DNA of 64,000 nt from Cylicocyclus nassatus (lineage: Eukaryota; Nematoda; Chromadorea; Rhabditida; Strongylidae). This document shows, in pieces, positions 5,783 to 57,924 of this stretch (position 1 is the first letter of the stretch; the number at the start of each line of letters is the position of its first letter). The position numbers and the translations under genes are program-made. The notes beneath the pieces are model-generated. The model worked only from the letters and a program-made list of their open reading frames with translations, was not told the origin of the DNA and did no database searches. The DNA lies in NCBI GenBank assembly GCA_958299035.1, contig CATQJL010000112.1, positions 699,001-763,000 on the forward strand. Direction: 5' to 3'.

Positions 5783-7321
5783 ATATATTTATTTATTGAT
5801 TTTATACGCCAGGAGGCGTGCTTCAATACAACAAAATCAGATCAGAGCAGGGTGTAAAACGACAAACCAATAGAGAAAAGGAAAAGAAAAACAACAAAGG
5901 AACAATTATACTGCAAAGAATAAGTCATCCAGACCTTGTCCAACCTACTTTGCACTCCATGGAGGAAATAGAAACATAAAACAACGTTGGCAATCTCATT
6001 CCCCCTACGCCCCTCAGCCCGATCAGTCGTGGGGTAGAGTGGAGGCCTGGCGACCGGCTATACTGGCCGCCGCCGCCAGACAAGCCAAAACGGGTTTACC
6101 GGCAGGGGGCTGCCAATACCACCGCTCACCGAAACTCCCGCTCCTCCCCACGAACCCGCCATGACCGACCGGAGTGGCGGAAGCAGACAAAACAACGCCC
6201 CCCGTCACTAGTATTACCGCCAGTGTAGTGAAAAGGAAAGAAACGATCTGAACAAAAATCCTTCAAAGAACCTGAGTGGAGATACTTGAAGAGGTGATGA
6301 AAAGTGAGAAGAGCTAGCTGACAAAAGCTGCACCCGGAACTGTGAAGCTCTGGAAAGACATAGGAAAACAATAGGAAAACATACTAAACGTAGACTGCTC
6401 ACGTTACTGCAGTGCAGGTAACATACAATCAAACAAGAAGCGGGTGATGAAAAAGAAAAGAACAACAACAAATGCTTCATTCCACGTCATGTATGCTTAG
6501 CACTTGTAAAATGTCCATTTTGCCGATGGCTTTTTTGAAGTGCGATGAACTTTTAAGACATAAAAGAGTAGTAGGCAAAATTCCAGCCATTTGGCGACTC
6601 TGAAAAAGAAGGAACTCGTATACCTAGACGATTTGCGCTCGGTAGCTTGAGTCGAAAAGCAAAACCGCCATGCATCCGTACACCGGACAAAACGCCCAAT
6701 AGCTCGAAGGGTTTTAAACGAAGTTCGCCTTTGGGAATCTACACGCTAAAATCAAGTCCTTCTATTTTTCAGTAAAAAAGACTCTTGGGGTTGAACTTGC
6801 GCAGGCGAACCTTATATGGGGGTAGCTGCTGCTGCTGACCCTGCTTATAGCTTGGGTCCGGAAAGACTCAGTAATAGAGTACTCCTGTAAACGTCCTCTG
6901 CACACTCTCAATTTTGTTAAGGTCTTTGGAGCGATATGGACTCCATTCAGGGCCGTAATATTCAATTAGTGGCAACACGAACATTTTACAAAGTTCGATC
7001 CAAAGAAAAGGATCCGAACTAGAAACATTTCTAGATAGACAGTGCAAAACCCTCAAGCCCTTGGCCGCCACCTCGTCAATCTGGCCCTCAAAGTTCAAAC
7101 ATTTCCAACTAGCATGCCAAGATCACGAACTTCCCTGCTCACTAACATGTTTCCTAGCTCATTGTTTTAAACGCTCAGTGAGAGCGATCCCATGGGAAGA
7201 TGCTGACTTTTGCGAAATATGACTCTGAGATGCCAAAAATTGTCCACTGCAACATACGTTCGACAGATTCCGTCAAAGCCTGCTGAACTGCTTCTTTTTT
7301 CTGTTTCACTATAAACTGCAG

Positions 7322-7520
7322 TGTTGTGCAGCCGCACAAGAAACCAATGCTGGAGAAGAATAACCGAATATGTTGATCTGTTGTTTATGATATGTGATAT
7401 AGTTGTGTGCACTATATATAGGCATTCCTTAGTAAGTATAGTTCATTCTTAGTTCCTTGTCGTCAAGTAAAGAACTCCGTCTCCAATCGTCTTCCTACAC
7501 ACGCCATGGCAAACACAACA
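7322..7520 (+). repeat. 5' LTR
   Basis: It begins TGTTGTGCAG and ends AAACACAACA, giving TG...CA ends inside a TGTTGT/ACAACA inverted repeat. A TATATATA box lies near 7412. The gag ATG lies at 7506, inside the LTR. Confidence 0.9.
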
Positions 7521-8450
7521 ACTGGCGATCAGAACCCGAACCCGAGCCCGAACCCGATCCCCAACATGGACCAAACACACCTTCTGATGCTGCAAATCAC
7601 GGAGCTGCGGAAAGAAGTAAAGAAGAAACAAGGATCCAGCGAGGATTACGTGATGAATGCACTTGATACTCGTCTACCAGAATTCGATCAGAACCCGAAC
7701 CCTAGCCCGAACACGGACACGATCCACTTTCTAATGAAGCAAATCATGGAACTGTGGAAGTCTTGTCGAGAACCCATGGCTGAACTGACGAAGCAAGAAC
7801 CCAACGAAGAGTACAAAGACTACTTGGAATTGCAGAATCATATACAGATGATCGACAAAGCCAAGGTACCTCAGGTCAGCGTGAATCAGATGAATGAGAA
7901 CCCGCAAGTCAACGCGATGCAGCGAGACGAGAAGCGGAAGCCATTCATTGGTCACAAGCCCAGAACACACCTTTGTATGAACTGCGGAGCGAAGACTCAT
8001 AGGACCAGGAAGTGCGAGAAGCCGATCACTGAATGCAATTACTGCAAGAAGAGTGGACATCTAGAGAGGTACTGTCTACGTAAACTATTTGTCGATGAAG
8101 CCAAGGACGTCCACCCTGTCGTCATCTCACCGCCTAAAGAAACGAAGTCGTACTGCAATGTGAAAACCAACAACACAAGTATCGAGTTACGACTTGACTG
8201 TGAAGCTGAAGATCGCGACACATGGATCAAGACTGGCCGACACAAGCTAAAGAAGCCGAAACATAATTCGACTGCTGCTAGGACCAGCATTACATGCCAT
8301 GGACACGGCACATGTGAGCATGCGCTAAATGGCATTGCCTTGAATGGTACCACAAATGTACATGATGACCAGCTCTACTTGAAGTGCATTGGAACCAGAG
8401 CGACTGTGCCTTTCACAGTGATATCGGCTGTCATAATTCGAATACAGTGA
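7506..8450 (+). CDS. Gag protein with two CCHC zinc knuckles
   Basis: A 314-codon ORF starts at the ATG 15 bp before the end of the 5' LTR and runs into the interior. The N-terminal part carries an internal duplication: DQNPNPSPN, followed by a hydrophobic LMLQITELRK-type segment, recurs about 53 residues later. Two nucleocapsid zinc knuckles follow, at about residues 158-171 (C-x2-C-x4-H-x4-C, from CMNCGAKTH) and 177-190 (CNYCKKSGHLERYC). These bind RNA in LTR retrotransposon Gag. The ORF overlaps the next one, so pol would need a frameshift. The start inside the LTR is unusual. No host role is implied. Confidence 0.8.
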   Translation: MANTTTGDQNPNPSPNPIPNMDQTHLLMLQITELRKEVKKKQGSSEDYVMNALDTRLPEFDQNPNPSPNTDTIHFLMKQIMELWKSCREPMAELTKQEPNEEYKDYLELQNHIQMIDKAKVPQVSVNQMNENPQVNAMQRDEKRKPFIGHKPRTHLCMNCGAKTHRTRKCEKPITECNYCKKSGHLERYCLRKLFVDEAKDVHPVVISPPKETKSYCNVKTNNTSIELRLDCEAEDRDTWIKTGRHKLKKPKHNSTAARTSITCHGHGTCEHALNGIALNGTTNVHDDQLYLKCIGTRATVPFTVISAVIIRIQ

Positions 8451-9151
8451 CCGCTACGAACGATACACTTGACAAGAAGCAAGCTCACCTGACAACACAG
8501 TTCGCAGAAGTGTTTCAACCCAAAACAGAAGACGGCACGAAAGCAACGACTGCCTTTGTGCTCGAAAAAGAAGATGAGAGCAAGATATTCGGCAAAACCC
8601 GTTCAAAATCCAGTCAATTTGAAAGTTCCGAGGTACCTGTTTTTTATGATATTACTCAATTCAGGATAGCCGAAATCCGCGATTCTGGAAAAGCCAGACA
8701 GGTTCGACAACCTCGCCATCAGCAGTTCAATGAACAGGCAGAAAGAATCGTCGACAACTTCCAGTGTCTAGTATCCAAGCCGAAAAGGGAGGAGACGTTA
8801 GCCGAAACAGTGCTAAAGTTTTCCATGCACTGTCGCGATATATCAAGCCCAACTTTGAATGACTGCTCCTTTGGTGAGATGTTCACTGAATACGAAGTTT
8901 ATATCGCTCCAGGTCCACTGTACTCGGCTGACGAGAAACATAAAGTGCAACCTAAGAAGAGGAAGTGTCAACTCAATTCTCAGCGCGGAAAGGACCCACC
9001 GCTTCACTTAGAAGGGGAGGTGTTGTGCAGCCGCACAAGAAACCAATGCTGGAGAAGAATAACCGAATATGTTGATCTGTTGTTTATGATAAGTGATATA
9101 GTTGTGTGCACTATATATAGGCATTCCTTAGTAAGTATAGTTCATTCTTAG
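8384..9151 (+). pseudogene. Pol remnant: RT N-terminus joined to integrase C-terminus
   Basis: The ORF starts inside the end of gag in another frame. Residues about 40-70 (TTQFAEVFQP ... GTKATTAFVLEK) resemble the segment that precedes Gypsy reverse transcriptase. Soon after, about residues 105-125 (HQQFNEQAERIVDNFQ) resemble the C-terminal part of the integrase core, where the family has an NGQAER-type motif. RT catalytic boxes, RNase H and the first two integrase acidic residues are absent, so most of pol was deleted. The element is non-autonomous. The ORF runs on into the 3' LTR. Confidence 0.65.
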
Positions 9152-9219
9152 TTCCTTGTCGTCAAGTAAAGAACTCCGTCTCCAATCGTCTTCCTACACA
9201 CGCCATGGCAAACACAACA
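9021..9219 (+). repeat. 3' LTR
   Basis: It is nearly identical to the 5' LTR. The one difference I noted is TATGATAAGTGA here against TATGATATGTGA there. It is preceded by the purine tract at about 9010-9019. Confidence 0.9.
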
Positions 9220-20609: not shown

Positions 20610-21435
20610 TATCCCTGCGTACAATTTTACAGCATTTTCATCGAGTTTACAAATATATGTAGATGACTTTGAAAACTTGAGGTGATCCCCTGGGGATCTC
20701 CTAGATCACACAAAACAGTAAACACAGTTTGTATGGCAATGTCATCCATTGTACTCAGATATTAAGGTATGTGAAACGTCATAAAGTGGACAGAAAAAGA
20801 ATTACACAGATAGATTAAAAAAGAATACAGATACCCAGGCCCGTACGCACGTAAATCCCCGCGAGAGAGGAGAGGGGACCTGCTCAGACAATCGCCGGGG
20901 GAGGCGGGCACCGGAAAAATAGATTGCTGATCTCTCGCACCCCGCTCGCAAATTTTTTGGATAGCAATCAGGACTTTTCGGAAGATCGCTTGCTGAGTTC
21001 TCGATTCCTCAGAGATTCAGCAATATATCTGCAAAAGATAAGAGCGAAAAAAAATTCAACAGGCGGTCTCTCAAAAATCCGCTGACTCAGCAAGCGGTCT
21101 TCCGAAAAGTCCTGATTGCTTTCCAAAAAATCCGCGAGCGGGATGCGAAAGATCAGCAATCTATTTTCCGGTGCCCGCCTGCCCCTGGCGATTGTTTGAG
21201 TGAGAGAGGACGCGCCGTATCTCGCTACTCCAAATAGCTGCATTATTTTTTCTAACTATCTTGTATTGGTTCTCAAAGCCTAATGCTCTAATATAATTGA
21301 TGACAGAAAATCACCGTACAGACTCTGTTTTTCATCGTTTCGTGTGGTCCCCTGGAAATCCCCAGGGGGTCTCCTACATCTTCAAAGTCGTTTTCCTATG
21401 AATTCGATGAAAATGCTGTAAAATTGTAGCGGCGA
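20610..21435. repeat. Inverted repeat enclosing the 20.88-kb TIR element
   Basis: ACAATTTTACAGCATTTTCATCGA (about 20620) reappears inverted as TCGATGAAAATGCTGTAAAATTGT near 21410. The match extends over CCCCTGGGGAT.TCC. It appears to be an older foldback element that received the 318-bp element. Confidence 0.65.
20883..21200. mobile_element. TIR element, 318-bp palindromic form without SL module
   Basis: It begins CTCAGACAATCGCCGGGGG, ends GGCGATTGTTTGAG and is flanked by TG on both sides (20881-20882, 21201-21202). It is an almost perfect foldback made of the CACCGGAAAAATAG...GATCAGCAATC subterminal region seen at one end of the 578-bp copies. The SL-like module and the other subterminal region are absent. 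Confidence 0.75.
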
Positions 21436-22670: not shown

Positions 22671-23259
22671 CTCAGATAATCGCCGGGGGCAGGCGGTCCG
22701 CAAACTCGCGCTTTTCTGCAGGCGGTCAGCAGAATTTTGGGGCGTGGCCAAACCTTCAGCGGGCGGCACTTCCTTTACGGTCGCATATTCTGCCAGCGGG
22801 CAGCAATACAGCATTTTTTGCAAGCGCTCGGCAAATAATTTCTTTCAGCGAGCGCTGGCCAAACTTTCAGCAAGCGCTCGGACTCTTTTTAGGCATTTTC
22901 GGGCGTACGTCGAGCGCAAGTAAGACTCTGTGTGGCAGAAGTGTCACCGTTGGTTTAATTACTCAAGTTTGAGGTACTTTCCCCCAGCGGAAAGTACCTG
23001 GGGGTTGCGCGGTCCTCCACAAAGGACCGTGCGGCCCCCGAAATTTTTGCATATTCTCGCGGAAAGTCCGCGAGAATGCGGCCACTGCGCCGCAGCTAAT
23101 CCATAAAGAAACCGCGATTGTTCTTCAAGCATTCGTCTTTAATTTCGCCAATTTTCTTCCAAATTTCTGCAGGCGGGCGGCAAAAAATCAACGAACTATT
23201 TTTCCGGTGCGCGCTTGCTCAAAATTCGCATGGCCGCCTGCCCCCGGCGATTATCTGAG
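22671..23259 (+). mobile_element. SL-bearing TIR element, copy T2 (589 bp)
   Basis: Ends CTCAGATAATCGCCGGGGG and CCCCCGGCGATTATCTGAG, with a 2-bp duplication GA at 22669-22670 and 23260-23261. Subterminal regions contain iterated GCAGGCGGTCAGCAG and AGCGAGCGCTGGCCAAAC motifs. The SL RNA-like module is in the second half. It interrupts the Tigger pseudogene. Confidence 0.85.
22952..23080 (+). ncRNA. SL1 spliced-leader RNA-like module in copy T2
   Basis: Positions 22952-22973 match the canonical nematode SL1 exon at 21 of 22 bases (C to T at position 12). GT follows at 22974. GTACTTTC pairs with GAAAGTAC as a stem-loop, and GCGCGGTCC pairs with GGACCGTGC as a second. AATTTTTG at 23042-23049 resembles an Sm-binding site. 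A hairpin ATTCTCGCGGA/TCCGCGAGAAT closes the module at 23053-23077. This is the order of parts in nematode SL RNA: exon, donor, stem-loop, Sm site, 3' hairpin. Expression is not shown. Confidence 0.75.
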
Positions 23260-35246: not shown

Positions 35247-35431
35247 TTCAGATAATCGCCGGGGCAGGTGGCCATGCGATTTATGGGCAAGCGGGCACTG
35301 GAAAAACAGTTGGACTGATTTCTTGCGGTCCGCTTGCAGATATTTGGAAGAATGTTGGCCACTTTTCGGACGAACGCTCAGAGAACAGTTGTCGCCTATC
35401 CAAGGATTCAATGTGGGGCAGTGGCCGCATC

Positions 35432-35549
35432 CCCGTGGACTGTCCGCGAGAATATGCAAAATTGTTGAGGGCCGCACGGTCCTCTGTGAAGAACCGCACA
35501 GCCCGTATTTCCGCTGAGAGAAGGTATCCCGAACTTGGATAATTAGACC
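35432..35549 (-). ncRNA. Degenerate SL1-like module in copy T8
   Basis: The exon-like segment 35549-35528 matches SL1 at 18 of 22 positions. The following dinucleotide is AT instead of GT, so the donor is lost. AATTTTG and the 3' hairpin remain. It is probably non-functional. Confidence 0.55.
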
Positions 35550-35584
35550 ATCGATGACAACTCTGCTACATAGAGTCTCACCTT

Positions 35585-36162
35585 CTCAGATAATCGCCGG
35601 GGGCAGGCGGTCCGCAAACTCGCGCTTTTCTGCAGGCGGTCAGCAGAATTTTGGGGCGCGGCCAAACCTTCAGCGGGCGGTAGTTCCGCGTTCTGCCAGC
35701 GGGCAGCAATGCAGAATTTTCTGCGAGCGCTCGTCAAATAATATCTTCCAGCGAGCGCTGGCCAAACTTTCAGCAAGCGCTCGGACTCTCTTTTTAGGTA
35801 TTTTCGGGCGTACGTCGAGCGCAGGTAAGACTCTGTGTGGCAGAGGTGTTATCGTTGGTTTAATTACTCAAGTTTGAGGTACTTTCTCTCAGCGTAGTAC
35901 CTGGGGGTTGCGCGGTCCTCCACAAAGGACCGTGCGGCCCTCGAAATTTTTGCATATTTTCGCGGAAAGTCCGCGAGAATGCGGCCACTGCGCCGCACCT
36001 AATCCATAAAGAAACCGCGATTGTTCTTCAAGCATTCGTCTTTAATTTCGCCAACTTTCTTCCAAATTTCTGCAAGCGGGCCGCAAAAAATCAACGAACT
36101 ATTTTTCCGGTGCGCGCTTGCTCAAAATTCGCATGGCCGCCTGCCCCCGGCGGTTATCTGAG
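35585..36162 (+). mobile_element. SL-bearing TIR element, copy T3 (578 bp)
   Basis: CTCAGATAATCGCCGGGGG...GGCGGTTATCTGAG, flanked by TT (35583-35584, 36163-36164). It is inserted in copy T8. It is closely similar to T2. Confidence 0.85.
35857..35982 (+). ncRNA. SL1-like module in copy T3
   Basis: 35857-35878 matches SL1 at 21 of 22 bases (same C to T at position 12 as T2), with GT at 35879. AATTTTTG lies at 35945-35952, followed by the hairpin with CGCGGAAAGTCCGCG. The stem after the donor is partly eroded (GTACTTTC against GCGTAGTAC). Confidence 0.7.
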
Positions 36163-36548
36163 TTTGCTCGGTGTGCGCCTGAAACTGGTAAAAAAGAGTC
36201 CGAGCGCCTGCTGAAGGTATGGCCAGCGCTCGCTGGAAGAAATTGTCTGAAGAGCGCTCGCAGAATATTCTGTATTGCTGGCAGAACACGGAAGTACCGC
36301 TCGTGAATGTTCAAAATTTCTAACTCTCTGACTCAAATAATCGCCTGCCCCCCGGAGATTATCTGAGTTAGAGAGCGCCGAAACGTGGAGGCTATCATGA
36401 AGTCCTAGAACGACCGGCACCGATGGCAACCTCGGCAACCTCGGACACACTTGCCGGAAACCGCTGGGCGTTCCCGTAGGTGACAGGATGAACGAAACTG
36501 ATAAAAAAAATGAAGTTGTCTAAGCAATGACTGCAAGTCCTGCACCTT

Positions 36549-37126
36549 CTCAGATAATCGCCGGGGGCAAGCGGCCATGCGAATTTTGAGCAAGCGGGCA
36601 CCGGAAAAATAGTTCGCTGATTTTTTGTGGTCCGCTTGCAGAAATTTGGAATAATTTTGGCCAATTTTTAGACGAACGCTCGAAGATCTAACGCGGTTTT
36701 TCTAAACATAGGTTGCGGCACAGTGGCCGCATTCTCGCGGATTTTCCGCGAGAACATGCAGAATTATTGAGAGCCGCACGGTCCTTCTTGAAGGACCGCG
36801 CAGCCCTCAGGTACTTTCCGCTGAAAGAAAGTACCCCAAACTTGGGTAATAAAACCATCGATGGCACCTCTGCCACATAGAGTTTCATCTTTTCTCGGCG
36901 TACGCCCGAAACTGCGTAAAAAGAGTCTGGGCGCCTGCTGAAAGTTTGGCCAGCGCTCGCTGAAAGAGATTGTTTGACGAGCGCTTGCAGAAAATTTTGT
37001 ATTGATGCCCGCTTGCAGAAAACGCAAATACCACCCGCTGAAGATTTGGCCACGCCCCGAAATCCTGCTGACCGCCTGCAGAAAAGCGCGAGTTTGCGGA
37101 CCGCCTGCCCCCGGCGATTATCTGAG
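36549..37126 (-). mobile_element. SL-bearing TIR element, copy T4 (578 bp)
   Basis: It has the same termini, flanked by TT (36547-36548, 37127-37128). Its orientation is opposite to T3. It has the same length as T3, T5 and T6. Confidence 0.85.
36730..36856 (-). ncRNA. SL1-like module in copy T4
   Basis: 36856-36835 matches SL1 at 20 of 22 positions (differences at 6 and 21; position 12 is the canonical C). The GT donor is present. The GTACTTTC stem-loop and 3' hairpin are intact. The Sm site is eroded (AATAATTCTG). Confidence 0.65.
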
Positions 37127-37433: not shown

Positions 37434-38011
37434 CTCAGATAATCGCCTGGGGCAGGCAGCCATGCGATTTATGGGCGGGTGGGCACCGGAAAAATAGTTC
37501 GCTGTTTTCTTGCGGTCCGCTTGCAGATATCTGGAAGAATTTTAGCAAAATTGGACGAATGCTTGGAGAACAATCGCGGTTTCCTTATAGATTAGCCTTT
37601 CCGCGAGGACTTTAGGACTTTCCGCGAGAATGTGCAAAATTTTCGAAAACCGCACGGTCTCTTGTGGAGGACCGCGCAGCCCCAGGTACTTTCCGCTGAG
37701 AGAAAGTACCTCAAACTTGAGTAATTAAACCATCGATGACACCCCTGTCATGTAGAGTCTCACCTTTGTCCGGCGTACGCCCGAAACGCTTAAAAATCGT
37801 CCGAGCGCCAGCAGAAAATTTGACCGGCGCTCGCTGAAAGAGATTATTTGACGAGCGCCTGCAGAACATTCTGTGTTGCTGCCCGCTGGCAGAACATTAG
37901 ACAGTAAAGGAAGTAGCATTCGCTGAGGGTTTGGCCACGCCCCAAAATTCTGCTGACCGCTTGCAGAAGAGCGCGAGTTTGCGGACCGCCTGCCCCCGGC
38001 GATTATCTGAG
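37434..38011 (-). mobile_element. SL-bearing TIR element, copy T5 (578 bp)
   Basis: It is flanked by TA (37432-37433, 38012-38013). The termini are CTCAGATAATCGCCTGGGG and CCCCGGCGATTATCTGAG. It is in minus orientation. Confidence 0.85.
37600..37731 (-). ncRNA. SL1-like module in copy T5
   Basis: 37731-37710 matches SL1 at 21 of 22 bases, identical to T2 and T3. GT follows, then the intact GTACTTTC...GAAAGTAC stem-loop and an AAATTTTG Sm-like site. The last hairpin is partly rearranged. Confidence 0.7.
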
Positions 38012-41091: not shown

Positions 41092-42704
41092 TCATAATTA
41101 ATGCACGTTTTGAATTTCAACCGCAATAAGTCATACATTTTTCATTCTTATATAGGCTTCAAAGTACCGTTGGATAGAGCAAAGCAAGCTCTACAAGATG
41201 GTACTCATTTCTTTGCGCCATGCTCGATCCACGGAGAGTTCGAACTCAAAATCTAAAGATTTCCAAATGCCCGAAAAATCGAGAAAAAAATCAGATCTTC
41301 GTCCAAATAATTTCTACGGACCTCCCAATCGCTCACATCAATACTATCGATATCTGATATCCATATGTGCGATTGCCGTATTTTTCCCTTGACTAGAAAT
41401 TGAGATAACGAAAAATTTCCTGATTTTCTCAAAGCAATGCTGAGCCGTTTTTGCATATGTAGTTCTATACTACAAGCCTAGGTAAGCATAAGTGTAGGTT
41501 TTCAGCCTATTTCGAACGGTACTTTTCGAGAAATGTCGATTTTAGCACTGAAACTGAAACGAAAAAATCCGAATTTGTTATTTTTCGAAAACTACCGCTT
41601 GGAATGGGCTGAAAATCTACAGTTATACTTACCTAGGCTTGTAGTATAGAACTACATATGCAAAAACGGCTCAGCATTGCTTTGAGAAAATCAGGAAATT
41701 TTTCGTTATCTCAATTTCTAGTCAAGGGAAAAATACGGCAATCGCACATATGGATATCAGATATCGATAGTATTGATGTGAGCGAGTGGGAGGTCCGTAG
41801 AAATTATTTGGACGAAGATCTGATTTTTTTCGATTTTTCGGGCATTTGGAAATCTTTAGATTTTGAGTTCGAACTCTCCGTGGATCGAGCATGGCGCAAA
41901 GACATGAGTGCCTTCTTGTAGAGCTTGCTTTGCTCTATCCAATGGTTCTTTGAAGCCTATATAAGAATGAAAAGTGTATGACTTATTGCGGTTTGTCGCA
42001 CTATTTTTAAAAAATCATAACTTCTTTCGGTCACAACGATTTGGCGCCATTCAAATTTTGTCTGAAAGCGTAAAGCGTTTAGTTTCCAAAAGCTCCCTGG
42101 AGAGTTTCTGACATGCTCAGGTGGCAGAGATAAAAATGAAAGAACGAGATCATTCGAAATTCGGAATTTTTAAGCAAGAATTCTAAAAATTCAGAAACTG
42201 TGCGATAAAATCCAGAAAAGCCATTATCCTGATTTTTCTTACATTTGATTACTATCTGAGTCAAGTGCTGATCGAGCCCTTCTTTCAAAAGTTATGACTC
42301 TTTGAAAAATAATGCCGAAAAATCAATTTCCTAAGAATTCTTGAGAAACGGATTTTTTGGCATTCTTTTCAAAAATTCATAACTTCTGAAAGAAGGGCTC
42401 GATCAGCGCAAACTTGACTCAGATAGTAATCAAATGTAAAAAAAATTAGGATAATGGCTTTTCTGGACTTTATCGCACAGTTTCTGAATTTTTAGAATTC
42501 TTGCTTAAAAATTCCGAATTTCGGATGATCTCGTTCTTTCATTTTTATCTCTGCAACTTGAGCACCTTGGAAAGTCCTTAGGAAACTCTTGGAAGCTAAT
42601 TGCTTTACGCTTTCAGAAAAAATTTGAATGGCGCAAAATCGTCGTGACCGAAAGAAGTTATGATTTTTTGTAAATGGTGCGACAGAACTTTCGGTTCAAC
42701 CTAA
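41092..42704. mobile_element. Chimeric double mariner palindrome
   Basis: The outer ends are TTAGGTTGGTTCATAAT (left) and, in reverse complement, TTAGGTTGAACCGAAAG (right), both next to TA. Between them lie two complete palindromes back to back. The first is about 41133-41995 (arms ~410 bp, centre ~41560). The second is about 41998-42697 (arms ~330 bp, centre ~42320). The two outer ends belong to different families. ORFs at 41253 and 41658 are identical mirror shadows. Confidence 0.7.
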
Positions 42705-54048: not shown

Positions 54049-54073
54049 TATTGATAATCGCCGGAGGCAGGCG

Positions 54074-54651
54074 CTCAGATAATTGCTGGGATAGGCGGTC
54101 CGCAAACTCGCGCTTTTCTGCAAGCGGTCAGCAAAATTTTGAGCCGTGGCCAAACCTTCAGCGGGTGGTACTTCCGTGTTCTGCCAGCGGGCAGCAATAC
54201 AAAATTTTCTGCAAGCGCTCGAATAAGCGCTCGAATAGCGCTCTCTTTCAGCAAGCGCGGGTCAAACTTTCAGCAGGCGCTCGGACTTTTTTACGCAGTC
54301 GGGCGTACGGCGAGGAAAGGCAAGACTCTACATGGCAAAGGTGTCATCGATGGTTCTTTTACCCGAGTTTGGAGTACCTTCTTTCAGCAAAAGGTACCCA
54401 CGGGCTGTACGGTCTCACAAAAGAGTGGTGCCCTAAACAATATTGCATATTCTCGCGAAAAGTCCGCGAAAGTGCGGCCACTGCTCTGCAATTAATCTAC
54501 GAAAAAGCCGCAATTGTGCTCTGAGCGTTCGTCTAAAACGTCGTCAACATTTTTTTGTTCTCCGAGCGTACCGCAAGGAATCAGCTAACTATCTTTCCGG
54601 CGCCCGATTGCCCATAAATCGCATGGCCGCCTGCCCCGGCGATTATCTGAG
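54074..54651 (+). mobile_element. SL-bearing TIR element, copy T6 (578 bp)
   Basis: CTCAGATAATTGCTGGGA...CCCCGGCGATTATCTGAG, flanked by CG (54072-54073, 54652-54653). Confidence 0.85.
54352..54474 (+). ncRNA. Degenerate SL1-like module in copy T6
   Basis: 54352-54373 matches SL1 at 16 of 22 bases. The last base is A, so the boundary reads GA|GT. The Sm-like site is reduced to AATATTG. The 3' hairpin (TCTCGCG...CGCGA) persists. Probably inactive. Confidence 0.5.
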
Positions 54652-54906
54652 CGAACCGCAGACTCGCGTTTTCTTGCAGGCGGTCAGCAGAATTTTGGGG
54701 CTGGCCAAATCTTAAGCGAGCTGTACTTCTTTTACTGTCGCATGTTCTCCAGCGGGCAGCAATATAGTATTTTCTGCAAGCTCGTCAAATATATTCTTTC
54801 AGCAAGCGCGGCCAAATTTTCAGCGAGCGCTGCGACTCTTGTTACGCAGCTTAGGGCGTATGCTAAGCAACGGTAACACTCTATATGGCAGAGGTGGTTC
54901 ATCGAT

Positions 54907-55031
54907 GGTTTAATTACCCGATTTTGAGGTTTTCTTTCAGCGGAAGGTACCTACAGGCTGTGAGGTTCTTTACAGAGGACCGTGTGGCACTAAACAATAT
55001 TGCATATTCTCGCGGAATGTCCACGAGAATA
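54907..55031 (+). ncRNA. SL1-like module in copy T7
   Basis: 54907-54928 matches SL1 at 20 of 22 positions (differences at 14 and 16; canonical C at 12), with GT at 54929. The Sm-like site is reduced to AATATTG. The 3' hairpin is present with one mismatch. Confidence 0.6.
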
Positions 55032-55203
55032 CGATCACTGCTCCGCAATTAATCTACAAAAAAGCCGCAATTGTCCTCTGAGCGTTCGTTTAGAAACTGG
55101 CCGACATCTTCCGAAAATCTGAAAGCGGAAATCAGCGAACTATTTTCCCGGTGCCCGCTTAACCATAAATCGCATGGCCCCCTACCCCCGCCGATTCTCT
55201 GAG

Positions 55204-55560
55204 TAGGAGTTCTCCGTGATAGCGGATGATCTCGTCTTATTTATACCCAGTTCAGCTGTTGGGAAGGGGTTGGAAATGATCTTAACTGGTTGTCCCCGAC
55301 ATTCTGAGCGGTGAACTGCACACGCATGCACGGCCAAGCGAAAACCCATTTCAGGGCTAGGGGTAGAGGACACTAGGTCGCCGAAGAGTAAGATTTCGCG
55401 CGGACATCTGCAACAATGCGCACTTCTCGCCATCACGGCTCGTGGTAGCTGTCCGCAGGGGTAAAGCTTATTGTCGACCTCTTGTCCTCTACCCTGGGCT
55501 GACCCTCTGCTAGCGCGGGCCAGCAGGAGACAATAGAACGCAGATGCACACTTGAACACT
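55204..55560. other. No recognisable gene
   Basis: The minus-strand ORF 55182-55571 (129 codons) has no recognisable domain and partly overlaps a transposon end. Confidence 0.35.
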
Positions 55561-55569
55561 TGACACAAC

Positions 55570-57111
55570 ACTCAACACTTGCAAGTCTGGTTTCAGGGTG
55601 CTATCGAACATAACACCTAAGTCTTTAATAGATGTTTTATTCACCAAAGAAACTCCCGCATGCTGATAGTGTTCATCACTTGCAGTAGCACCAACATGGA
55701 ATACCGAGCTTTTATTTATATTTACTGAAATGTCCCAATTTGTGCACCATTCGACCATGTTATTGATGGCCTGCTGCAGAGCATCTTTAATTGTTCTCCG
55801 GTTATCCCTATTGTATATACCATAAATTTTGATATCGTCGGCATACATGAAAACATGTATGTCAGGATGAGTTTTTAGAATCTGGGGTAACTCAGCAGTA
55901 TAGACTAGGAATAGTAAGGGTGAAAGAGCACCGCCCTGCGGAAGCCCGCTTATACAACGAAAGCGTCCAGAATGATTTTTCCCCACTCGAACCGTCATAT
56001 ACCTGGAGTGCAGATACGATTTTAGCCAATCAAGCAAGGGTCCTCTAATACCATAATGCTCAAGCTTGTGCAACAATTTACCATGACTTATACGATCAAA
56101 AGCTTTCGACAAATCGAAACATATAACATCTACTTCTTTCTTATCATCTATTAGCTGGGTTACTGTGGATGCACCGCTGACAAACCCATGTTGTTCCGCG
56201 GGTATGAAATTGAACCTTTCCAGCCAAGAAAGAAGTTTGTCACGGATAATTTTTTCAAGGACTTTACATGGTACTGGATTTATGCTTATAGGTCTGAACT
56301 CTGTCACAGATTGAGGTTTGGGAACTTTCGGAACAGCAGTAACAATTGCTTCTTTCCAGATGTCAGGTATTTCACCAAAAATGAAACTAATATTGAAGAT
56401 ATGTGACAGAGGGAGCGAATGTTTTCTTGCACAACGTTTGAAGACAATCTGGGGAATGCCGTCAAAAGGTTCAAATGTAGAATGCTTTAGAGTTTTGAGA
56501 AAGTTTTCGACAGTAGAAGGCATGATTATAGGTGTTGAGCAGGTATGGTTCAGAGATGCCCCCAATGCTTTAGTATCCGTAGTACTTGTGGAAAAAGTTG
56601 TTGCAAAAAACTCAGCTAATGCTGAAGCCTTAGAGTGATTTGTTAGGCAGGTGTTGCCTAGCATGTCTTTCAAGGCGCCGTGATGTTGTAAATGCTGTAT
56701 ACGATGGATATAAGCAAAGAGATTTTTAGAGTGATTAGACGAAGCCAGGTGTCTCTCGTGATTTGTGAGGAATTTCTTGATGTGGAATGTCACGTCAGAA
56801 CAGACCTTACTGTATAATGGGCGGTTGTACTGAGCAGTTCTGAAAAGTTGTTCTTTCTGGAGCAGAAGCGGCTGTATGTGACGCGGGTATCGTAGATAGC
56901 TAATTCTGTGTACACCAAATGGAGTATATTTAGTCAGTAGACTATACATAACACAGCAGAATCTGTAGTATACATCAGAGGGGCTAATGTACCGATCGAA
57001 GATCTCTTCCCAGTCAAATGAGTGAAGGTCAATTTTCATTGCTTCGAAATCAATTTTGTTGAACATAGGAAATGGAATAAGTTCATTTTTGGAATTTTGG
57101 AATTTGTACAA
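55570..57111 (-). pseudogene. LINE reverse transcriptase, long uninterrupted ORF
   Basis: About 510 codons of continuous frame. The RT domain includes FEPFDGIPQIVFKR, WKEAIVTAVPKVPKP, FRPISINPVPCKVLEKII, AEQHGFVSG and DVICFDLSKAFDRISHGKLL. It continues with CISGLPQGGALSPLLFLVYT and FMYADDIKIYG. All three catalytic aspartates (FDLSKAFD and YADD) are present. A frameshift near 57100 separates it from the endonuclease, and the C-terminus is missing, so the element as a whole is dead. Confidence 0.85.
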
Positions 57112-57757
57112 AAATTCGATGGTACTGTGATGGATGTGCCAAACGGCGCCTTGACGGATAGTTTGTGTACTGAGTTAGCACCTGATAGCACCCAATCTAA
57201 AATGGCACCATCGCGGGTGGGTACAGTAACGAATTGCTTAAGGCCCAAGTCACGAAAGAACTCGAGAAATTTCTGAACTTGTGGATAAATATGTTGTAGT
57301 GAGTCGCCAGAGCATCTCATGGGAAGATTGAAACCACCAGCGATCAGGATATTCGGAGTACAGTGGGTAAAAGCTAAGAGGAGGTTCACAAGCATATCAT
57401 CTGAATCAGAAGCGGAGCTGGGAGGACGGTAGATACATATGACTCGGGTTTTAGAGAGAGTTCCGGGCTGGATAGATCAATCAGCTTTACTTCACAACTG
57501 CAGTTATTCTCGATTGCAATGCTCTCACATAATAACGTTGATTTAACCAATATGCAAACTCCTCCTCCCTTCTTACGTATTCTATCACACCGAAAAACCA
57601 TGTACGGTAGATTAGAAACTATTTCAGCATCACTTATTTTCGAAGATAACCATGATTCAGTGATAAAAAGAATATCGGGGAGTCTACTAGTCAAAAAATG
57701 ATGTAACAGTTGTAACTTGTTTACTAAGGATCTAGCATTGAAAAGAATACATCGCAA
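57036..57757 (-). pseudogene. LINE apurinic-like endonuclease fragments
   Basis: MRCILFNARSLVNKLQLL and PDILFITESWLSS give the N-terminal EN motifs. A second frame (57395-57036) continues with NILIAGGFNLPM, a GDFN-type motif with G for D, and VPTRDGAILDWVLS. The SDH region is partly lost. A frameshift lies near 57390. Confidence 0.75.
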
Positions 57758-57924
57758 AGAATCTCCTTGCTCACAACTCAGTCTCCCTGCATTACAGAGG
57801 AAACGTGGTGTGAGCCTATTGCAGACTGAGAAGAAGAAGGATTGTTGCCAGCCAATGAACTGGCAAGCACCAGCTCACTCTTGTAGACAACAAATCTATC
57901 TTCAAAGCTCCGACTCTGATTCAG

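Follow-up and report, generated by a model that had tools for sequence, protein, structure and literature searches.

In Cylicocyclus nassatus, a small strongyle that parasitizes horses, a non-autonomous transposon with terminal inverted repeats (TIRs) has most likely captured an SL1 RNA gene of its host, and it now occupies approximately 3,000 places in the genome. We consider this account probable, and under it intact copies are predicted to encode an RNA that folds, binds Sm proteins and could pass its 22 nt leader on to mRNAs. SL RNA genes are familiar chiefly as tandem arrays. The DNA analysed was a 64 kb stretch (C112:699001–763000, hereafter the window), for which a preliminary description had proposed that a TIR element carries an SL RNA gene. 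That proposal holds at the sequence level, and has gained support from copies across the genome, from target-site duplications (TSDs) and from a likeness to the tandem SL1 genes of the host that extends beyond the leader.

All seven SL1-like segments of the window sit within TIR elements of approximately 580 bp (541–589 bp), which have 26 bp TIRs and ends of the form CTCAGATAATCGCC...GGCGATTATCTGAG. E1 (22671–23259, + strand, 589 bp; TSD GA/GA), with its left TIR at 22671–22696 (+) and its right TIR at 23234–23259 (−), contains the best-folding of the seven SL RNA copies. E2a (35247–36367, −; TSD TT/TT) harbours a module at 35426–35549 that matches SL1 at 18 of 22 positions and has lost its donor, and is split by E2b (35585–36162, +; TSD TT/TT; module 35857–35981, 21/22). 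These are followed by E4 (36549–37126, −; TSD TT/TT), with a subfamily B leader in its module (36730–36856, 20/22), and by E5 (37434–38011, −; TSD TA/TA), in which stem III of the module (37595–37731, 21/22) is broken. Similarly, E6 (54074–54651, +; TSD CG/CG; module 54352–54476, 16/22) lies within the left end of E7 (54049–55203, +; module 54907–55032, 20/22), the seventh element, which has an eroded left end and no matching TSD. Each of the two split elements, E2a and E7, aligns through once its insert is removed. The 2 bp duplications at six of the seven elements (GA, TT, TT, TT, TA and CG) and the nesting are additions to the preliminary description. As no Pfam match exists for any of the six frames that lie over the elements or next to them and reach 150 aa (the size scanned), the elements look non-autonomous. 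With their TIRs and TSDs they resemble, as far as sequence can indicate, a MITE-like DNA transposon.

Several further features of the window are recorded here. A shorter element of 318 bp with related TIR ends (20883–21200, strand unassigned; TSD TG/TG) was found to hold no SL segment. Between positions 46 and 200 of the element consensus, copies of a motif close to CWGCRRGCG recur in the left arm and may be sub-terminal transposase-binding repeats; a similar sequence, TTTCAGCGG, occurs within hairpin I of the module. At 7321–9219, two direct repeats of 200 nt (1 mismatch), with starts 1,699 nt apart, TG...CA ends and TGCAG on both outer sides, enclose a frame sharing 93 % identity, over 55 % of its length, with a CCHC-type protein from C. 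nassatus; judged by these features, this looks like a short LTR element. A large inverted repeat at 41119–41993 comprises two arm pairs, each 96 % complementary, and is probably the reason for sub-threshold microRNA-precursor matches at 41427–41687. Finally, the region 55510–57874 has a reverse transcriptase frame (Pfam RVT_1), whose best named relatives are in strongylid nematodes, adjoined by an endonuclease-like frame that falls below Pfam's cut-off.

With regard to the leader, the places and scores previously given for the seven segments (21, 18, 21, 20, 21, 16 and 20 of 22 positions) were all reproduced. Five sites of at least 20/22 exist in the real window; among 200 versions simulated with an order-2 Markov model there is not one site of 19/22 or better, which speaks against a likeness to SL RNA arising by chance or convergence, with the leader being an unrelated motif and the hairpins serving transposition. 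G|GT follows exactly after the leader in five of the seven copies, as had been noted, and GT alone in six. In E1 the leader (22952–22973, +) matches SL1 at 21/22, with T at position 12, and is followed by the predicted GT splice donor (22974–22975, +). Position 12 is C in four window copies and T in three; the literal T12 leader had no occurrence in the literature searched. The majority leader of the window is identical to SL1 at 22/22 positions, as first described, but this identity does not carry over to the genome sample, in which the consensus leaders of the six subfamilies agree with SL1 at 20 or 21 of 22 positions and none is identical, four having T12 and two having A6T plus A21G. Over the seven window copies, conservation of the leader (0.814) is not above that seen elsewhere, as 271 of 567 windows score at least as high.

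Downstream of the leader come, in turn, the GT donor, hairpins I and II, the unpaired AATTTTTG and hairpin III, such that the SL RNA order previously reported (stem–loop, GC hairpin, Sm-like site, closing hairpin) is indeed present. On the + strand of E1, the predicted fold comprises stem–loop I (22972–22999, 11 bp), which contains the donor; stem–loop II (23000–23039, 17 bp); the putative Sm site AATTTTTG (23042–23049), single-stranded in the fold; and stem–loop III (23053–23077, 11 bp in the structure counted). The E1 fold has an energy of −73.2 kcal/mol and a z-score of −9.97, followed by E4 (module at 36856; −9.01) and E2b (module at 35857; −6.70), with the remaining four at −3.14, −2.83, −1.92 and −1.36. 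With z below −6 in three of the seven window copies and weaker values elsewhere, the fold is clear in three and eroded in the others. The 39 pairs of the structure are kept in 90 % of cells over the seven copies, compared with 36 to 54 % for slid versions of it. Covariation is modest: the seven copies add 24 pair types, a number matched or exceeded in 7 of 500 shuffles, and include four pairs changed on both sides (likewise in 53 of 500). The Sm-like core is unpaired in the best folds, and the base after its G is C, and not the purine of the motif purine-A-U4–6-G-purine given in the available part of PMC6362198. Simulated pairing tests on window copies, which favour E1, E2b, E4 and E5 and not E2a, E6 or E7, were not leaned on because their outcome changes with the copy used as reference (E1 to E4, P=0.066; E4 to E1, P=0.00085).

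The Rfam SL1 family (RF00198), proposed as a check in the preliminary description, went against the module: the three best copies, scanned singly, are listed on the right strand with 19.1, 12.2 and 15.8 bits, all far below the gathering threshold of 75. Their alignment starts at base 1 of the leader for E2b and E4, and in a shifted register for E1. When the whole window was scanned with E-values up to 10, neither SL1 nor 5S was listed, and ARAGORN reported no tRNA in it. A covariance model (R1) recovers all seven modules; the remaining rows of its output are weak or incomplete, and the sole nominally full-length one has an E-value of 1.3.

The SL1 genes of the host itself form a tandem array from C1:30138576, where the exact leader recurs, among the matches listed, mostly every 680 bases, with two steps of 794. 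The RNA of the array unit consists of the leader followed by GTATTTTCTAG..., AAAATTTTGGATATCTC and a closing hairpin; scanned singly, it scores 37.5 bits against Rfam SL1 (E-value 2.3e-05), which is also below the threshold of 75. In C. elegans, SL1 genes have a 5S-linked arrangement. At the gathering score the 5 kb array stretch (L034, C1:30136500–30141500) has no match to any Rfam family, 5S and SL1 among them, and in having no 5S match it is unlike C. elegans.

Element modules and array genes share a 22 nt leader (20–21 of 22 positions identical), a GT donor directly after it, eight of the nine following bases and, before the final hairpin, a AAAATTTTGSATATYCTC Sm block with its Sm-like site. 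Beyond the leader, it is at this Sm block that the best local match to the array lies, with P=0.0010, 0.018 and 0.35 for the consensuses of three subfamilies, and the likeness outside the leader is short. In contrast to the array genes, the module is dispersed in TIR elements, spans approximately 127 nt (the array RNA being taken as approximately 102 nt), and has stronger, GC-rich stems; its donor is predicted to pair with the downstream intron, so that the donor hairpin forms within the intron, whereas in the Rfam SL1 model and in the fold of the array RNA the donor pairs with the leader. On the basis of the likeness in leader, 9 nt block and Sm block, the module is read as a captured SL1 RNA gene, which, judging by sequence, is most likely what it is. 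Hairpins are common in TIR elements, and the shortness of the similarity after the leader, not significant for one of the three subfamilies, would suit the chance or convergence reading mentioned above; yet leader, donor position, 9 nt block, Sm block and hairpin order all agree with an SL1 gene of the same genome, and we regard such convergence as very unlikely. A reverse direction, in which the tandem SL1 genes derived from the element, would have had its opportunity in some 3,000 copies, with nothing direct in its favour. Brugia and C. elegans, however, have the same leader as the array (available text of PMC7181701), and the best local alignment between array unit and element covers, in that alignment, the leader and adjacent bases alone and no TIR, making this direction highly improbable.

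A different relationship between SL1 and mobile elements is described for Brugia malayi, in which SL1 lies beside Pao LTR retrotransposons and is explained as a leader that trans-splicing added to the transcript of the retrotransposon (PMC7181701, in the part available). Applied to the present case, the SL segment would be a DNA copy of a trans-spliced transcript. In line with this, 10 of the 30 exact-SL loci fetched have no surrounding TIR element, and one that was examined precedes frames with a Pao peptidase domain. A spliced leader would, however, have neither donor nor intron, whilst GT follows the leader in 120 of the 127 aligned element copies and the element has stretches resembling the first intron bases and the Sm part of the host's SL RNA. 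The retained donor already contradicts an origin from a transcript, which we judge exceedingly improbable for the module. Thus the Brugia case, in the part of PMC7181701 available, is alike in having SL1 sequence dispersed with a mobile element, and differs in that here an RNA-gene-like module lies inside a DNA element. Exact leaders outside both TIR elements and array are those of L021 and L135 (C1:4820810), L004, L012, L014, L015, L017, L018, L022, L026 and L028; eight of ten have a CCCGCGTGGCA-like stretch after the leader, and at L135 the leader lies approximately 200 nt before the open frames, one of them that with the Pao peptidase domain. An SL1-tagged retroelement of the Brugia type thus seems to exist in C. 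nassatus too.

Turning to conservation of the element across the genome (514,686,895 bases, 369 contigs), the search for further elements suggested in the preliminary description gave approximately 3,000 pattern matches, with TSDs. The left-arm pattern gave 1,484 + 1,550=3,034 matches and the right-arm pattern 1,076 + 1,090=2,166, with 0 + 0 for the reversed control of each. The SL pattern with up to three mismatches gave 2,243 + 2,276=4,519 (reversed control 19 + 21=40), a count that takes in array genes and retroelement leaders; as these are repeats, all such counts may be lower bounds. The same kind of search in viral and genome contig collections yielded nothing useful, and three matches there to an 18-letter pattern were taken as chance. 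For closer analysis 160 places were chosen by their arms and not by their leader (90 + 10 by the left arm, 60 by the right), all on C1 (107,728,306 bases) and C112 (89,099,805 bases). Because they were chosen as exact arm matches, the sample leans to younger copies. Both ends were obtained for 135, and 120 copies of length 520–620 were aligned with the seven of the window to give 127, of which 98 fall into six groups of at least four copies. TSDs of 2 bp flank 93 of the 126 testable sampled copies (61/83 + 32/43), where approximately 1 in 16 would be expected; their sequences are varied, with TA in 26 of the 93. Besides the GT donor mentioned above, an Sm core (A-T4 or more) is kept in 102 of the 127 aligned copies, and at least 37 of the 39 pairs in 77 (all 39 in 27). 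Elements of 426–429 bp that have no SL segment (L036, L048, L144 and L145) were considered as pre-capture forms; their gap borders are of three kinds, such that deletion explains them equally well, with L144 and L145 having common gap borders and being 95 % alike.

The principal rival to a captured gene that still yields RNA is that the module is a dead pseudogene passenger, captured once, untranscribed, and copied only through its position between the TIRs. This is a serious possibility, although we hold it to be distinctly less than even. Several window copies have lost donor, Sm site or stems, and the leader consensuses have drifted from SL1, both as a passenger might. Likewise, the 110 nt upstream of the module, where the snRNA-type promoter (PSE) of an SL RNA gene would be expected, bear no similarity to the region upstream in the array (P=0.19, 0.32 and 0.99). 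Conversely, donor, Sm core and at least 37 pairs occur together in 65 of the 127 aligned copies, more intactness than a passenger would suggest, in a sample that leans young.

Substitution patterns within the 98 grouped copies bear on both readings. The preliminary description had raised constraint on the leader, and this stands for differences overall and for shared ones, though not for private changes. Counting all differences, the leader has 48/2,153 against 1,395/32,000 in the flanks (ratio 0.51; site permutation P=0.004), with none of 266 flank windows as low. Changes common to at least two copies are similarly depleted (8/2,153 against 249/32,000; ratio 0.48, site permutation P=0.013), which disfavours a passenger. 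For private changes the leader shows no such deficit (30/2,153 against 504/32,000; ratio 0.88; P=0.59, or 0.23 by site permutation), and their match to the flanks in leader, stems and Sm stretch is what a passenger would show. From this contrast between private and shared changes, it appears that single insertions drift freely, whilst copies that have multiplied show less change in the leader. By all differences, stems are less variable than flanks (ratio 0.80), loops more so (1.29), and the Sm stretch shows no conservation (0.98). Among the 54 grouped copies sampled first, variability was approximately fourfold lower in the leader than in the flanks (ratio 0.24; private changes 0.45), also at non-CpG and composition-matched sites; a fourfold constraint on single insertions is not claimed, as for private changes it was not upheld in the 98 copies. 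A parsimony count over 79 copies, older ones included, was null, at 3.00 changes per site against 3.30 (P=0.30). Leader mismatches number 23 in 1,012 letters of RNA-intact copies and 48 in a broken set of 726 letters, a difference that could be an effect of age alone.

As for the stems, pairing is kept by 49 of 104 private changes and, no better, by 26 of 54 shared ones. All seven stem columns that differ between subfamily consensuses, however, keep pairing (P=0.013 against the private changes; P=0.027 when counted as six pairs, one of them changed on both sides), which would not be expected of a passenger; these are few columns, and the structure was derived from one of the compared copies. 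It would seem that individual copies decay freely after insertion and that the founders of subfamilies kept the RNA fold.

Comparable associations are known from other systems, as far as the available parts of the sources indicate. In flatworms, 597 SL-RNA-like loci are associated with mobile elements (PMC12582326); they likewise tie SL sequence to such elements, but have partial leaders only, belong mostly to LTR and LINE elements, and were discarded as non-genes. The MelSat01 satellite of Meloidogyne, with Mi-SL1b (PMC9673304), resembles the present family in that a repeat spreads an SL RNA gene, and differs in being tandem satellite DNA whose leader and Sm site are conserved between species. 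Tm1 of Meloidogyne (PMC3169594) and the CERP2/CELE2 MITEs (PMC9757741) are, like our elements, nematode inverted-repeat elements, many of them non-autonomous; they carry a histone-hairpin motif or promoter motifs, with no SL RNA found in the accessible text, and the TSDs of Tm1 are of 9 bp. No case of a DNA transposon carrying an SL RNA gene was found in the literature searched, which is mainly non-subscription and was available in part (including PMC3169594, PMC7593179, PMC9673304, PMC12582326, PMC6362198, PMC2527325, PMC9757741, PMC7181701 and PMC4054779).

Under the favoured reading, that of a captured gene, a TIR element would have taken up a host SL1 RNA gene, with the direction of transfer as argued above, and the hairpins of that gene would subsequently have been remodelled. 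Source copies would have kept a foldable RNA whilst spreading as several subfamilies, all with the module, using transposase presumably supplied in trans. Transcription from the element, capping, Sm binding and use in trans-splicing may then follow. That the module really serves as a trans-splicing donor is a real prospect, though in our estimation clearly less likely than not. We are equally tentative about the broader proposition that a living transposon family disperses more than 1,000 working SL donor genes and puts T12 and A6T/A21G leaders on host mRNAs.

If the module does work as a donor, each jump of the transposon would plant a new potential trans-splicing donor in the genome. The element-specific leaders are distinguishable by RNA-seq, and pipelines that drop SL-like loci near mobile elements, or that apply Rfam SL1 at its gathering score, could miss such genes. 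A TIR element with a whole SL gene would offer a concrete route by which donors may be spread and diversified, and bears on why families of leaders multiply and diverge.
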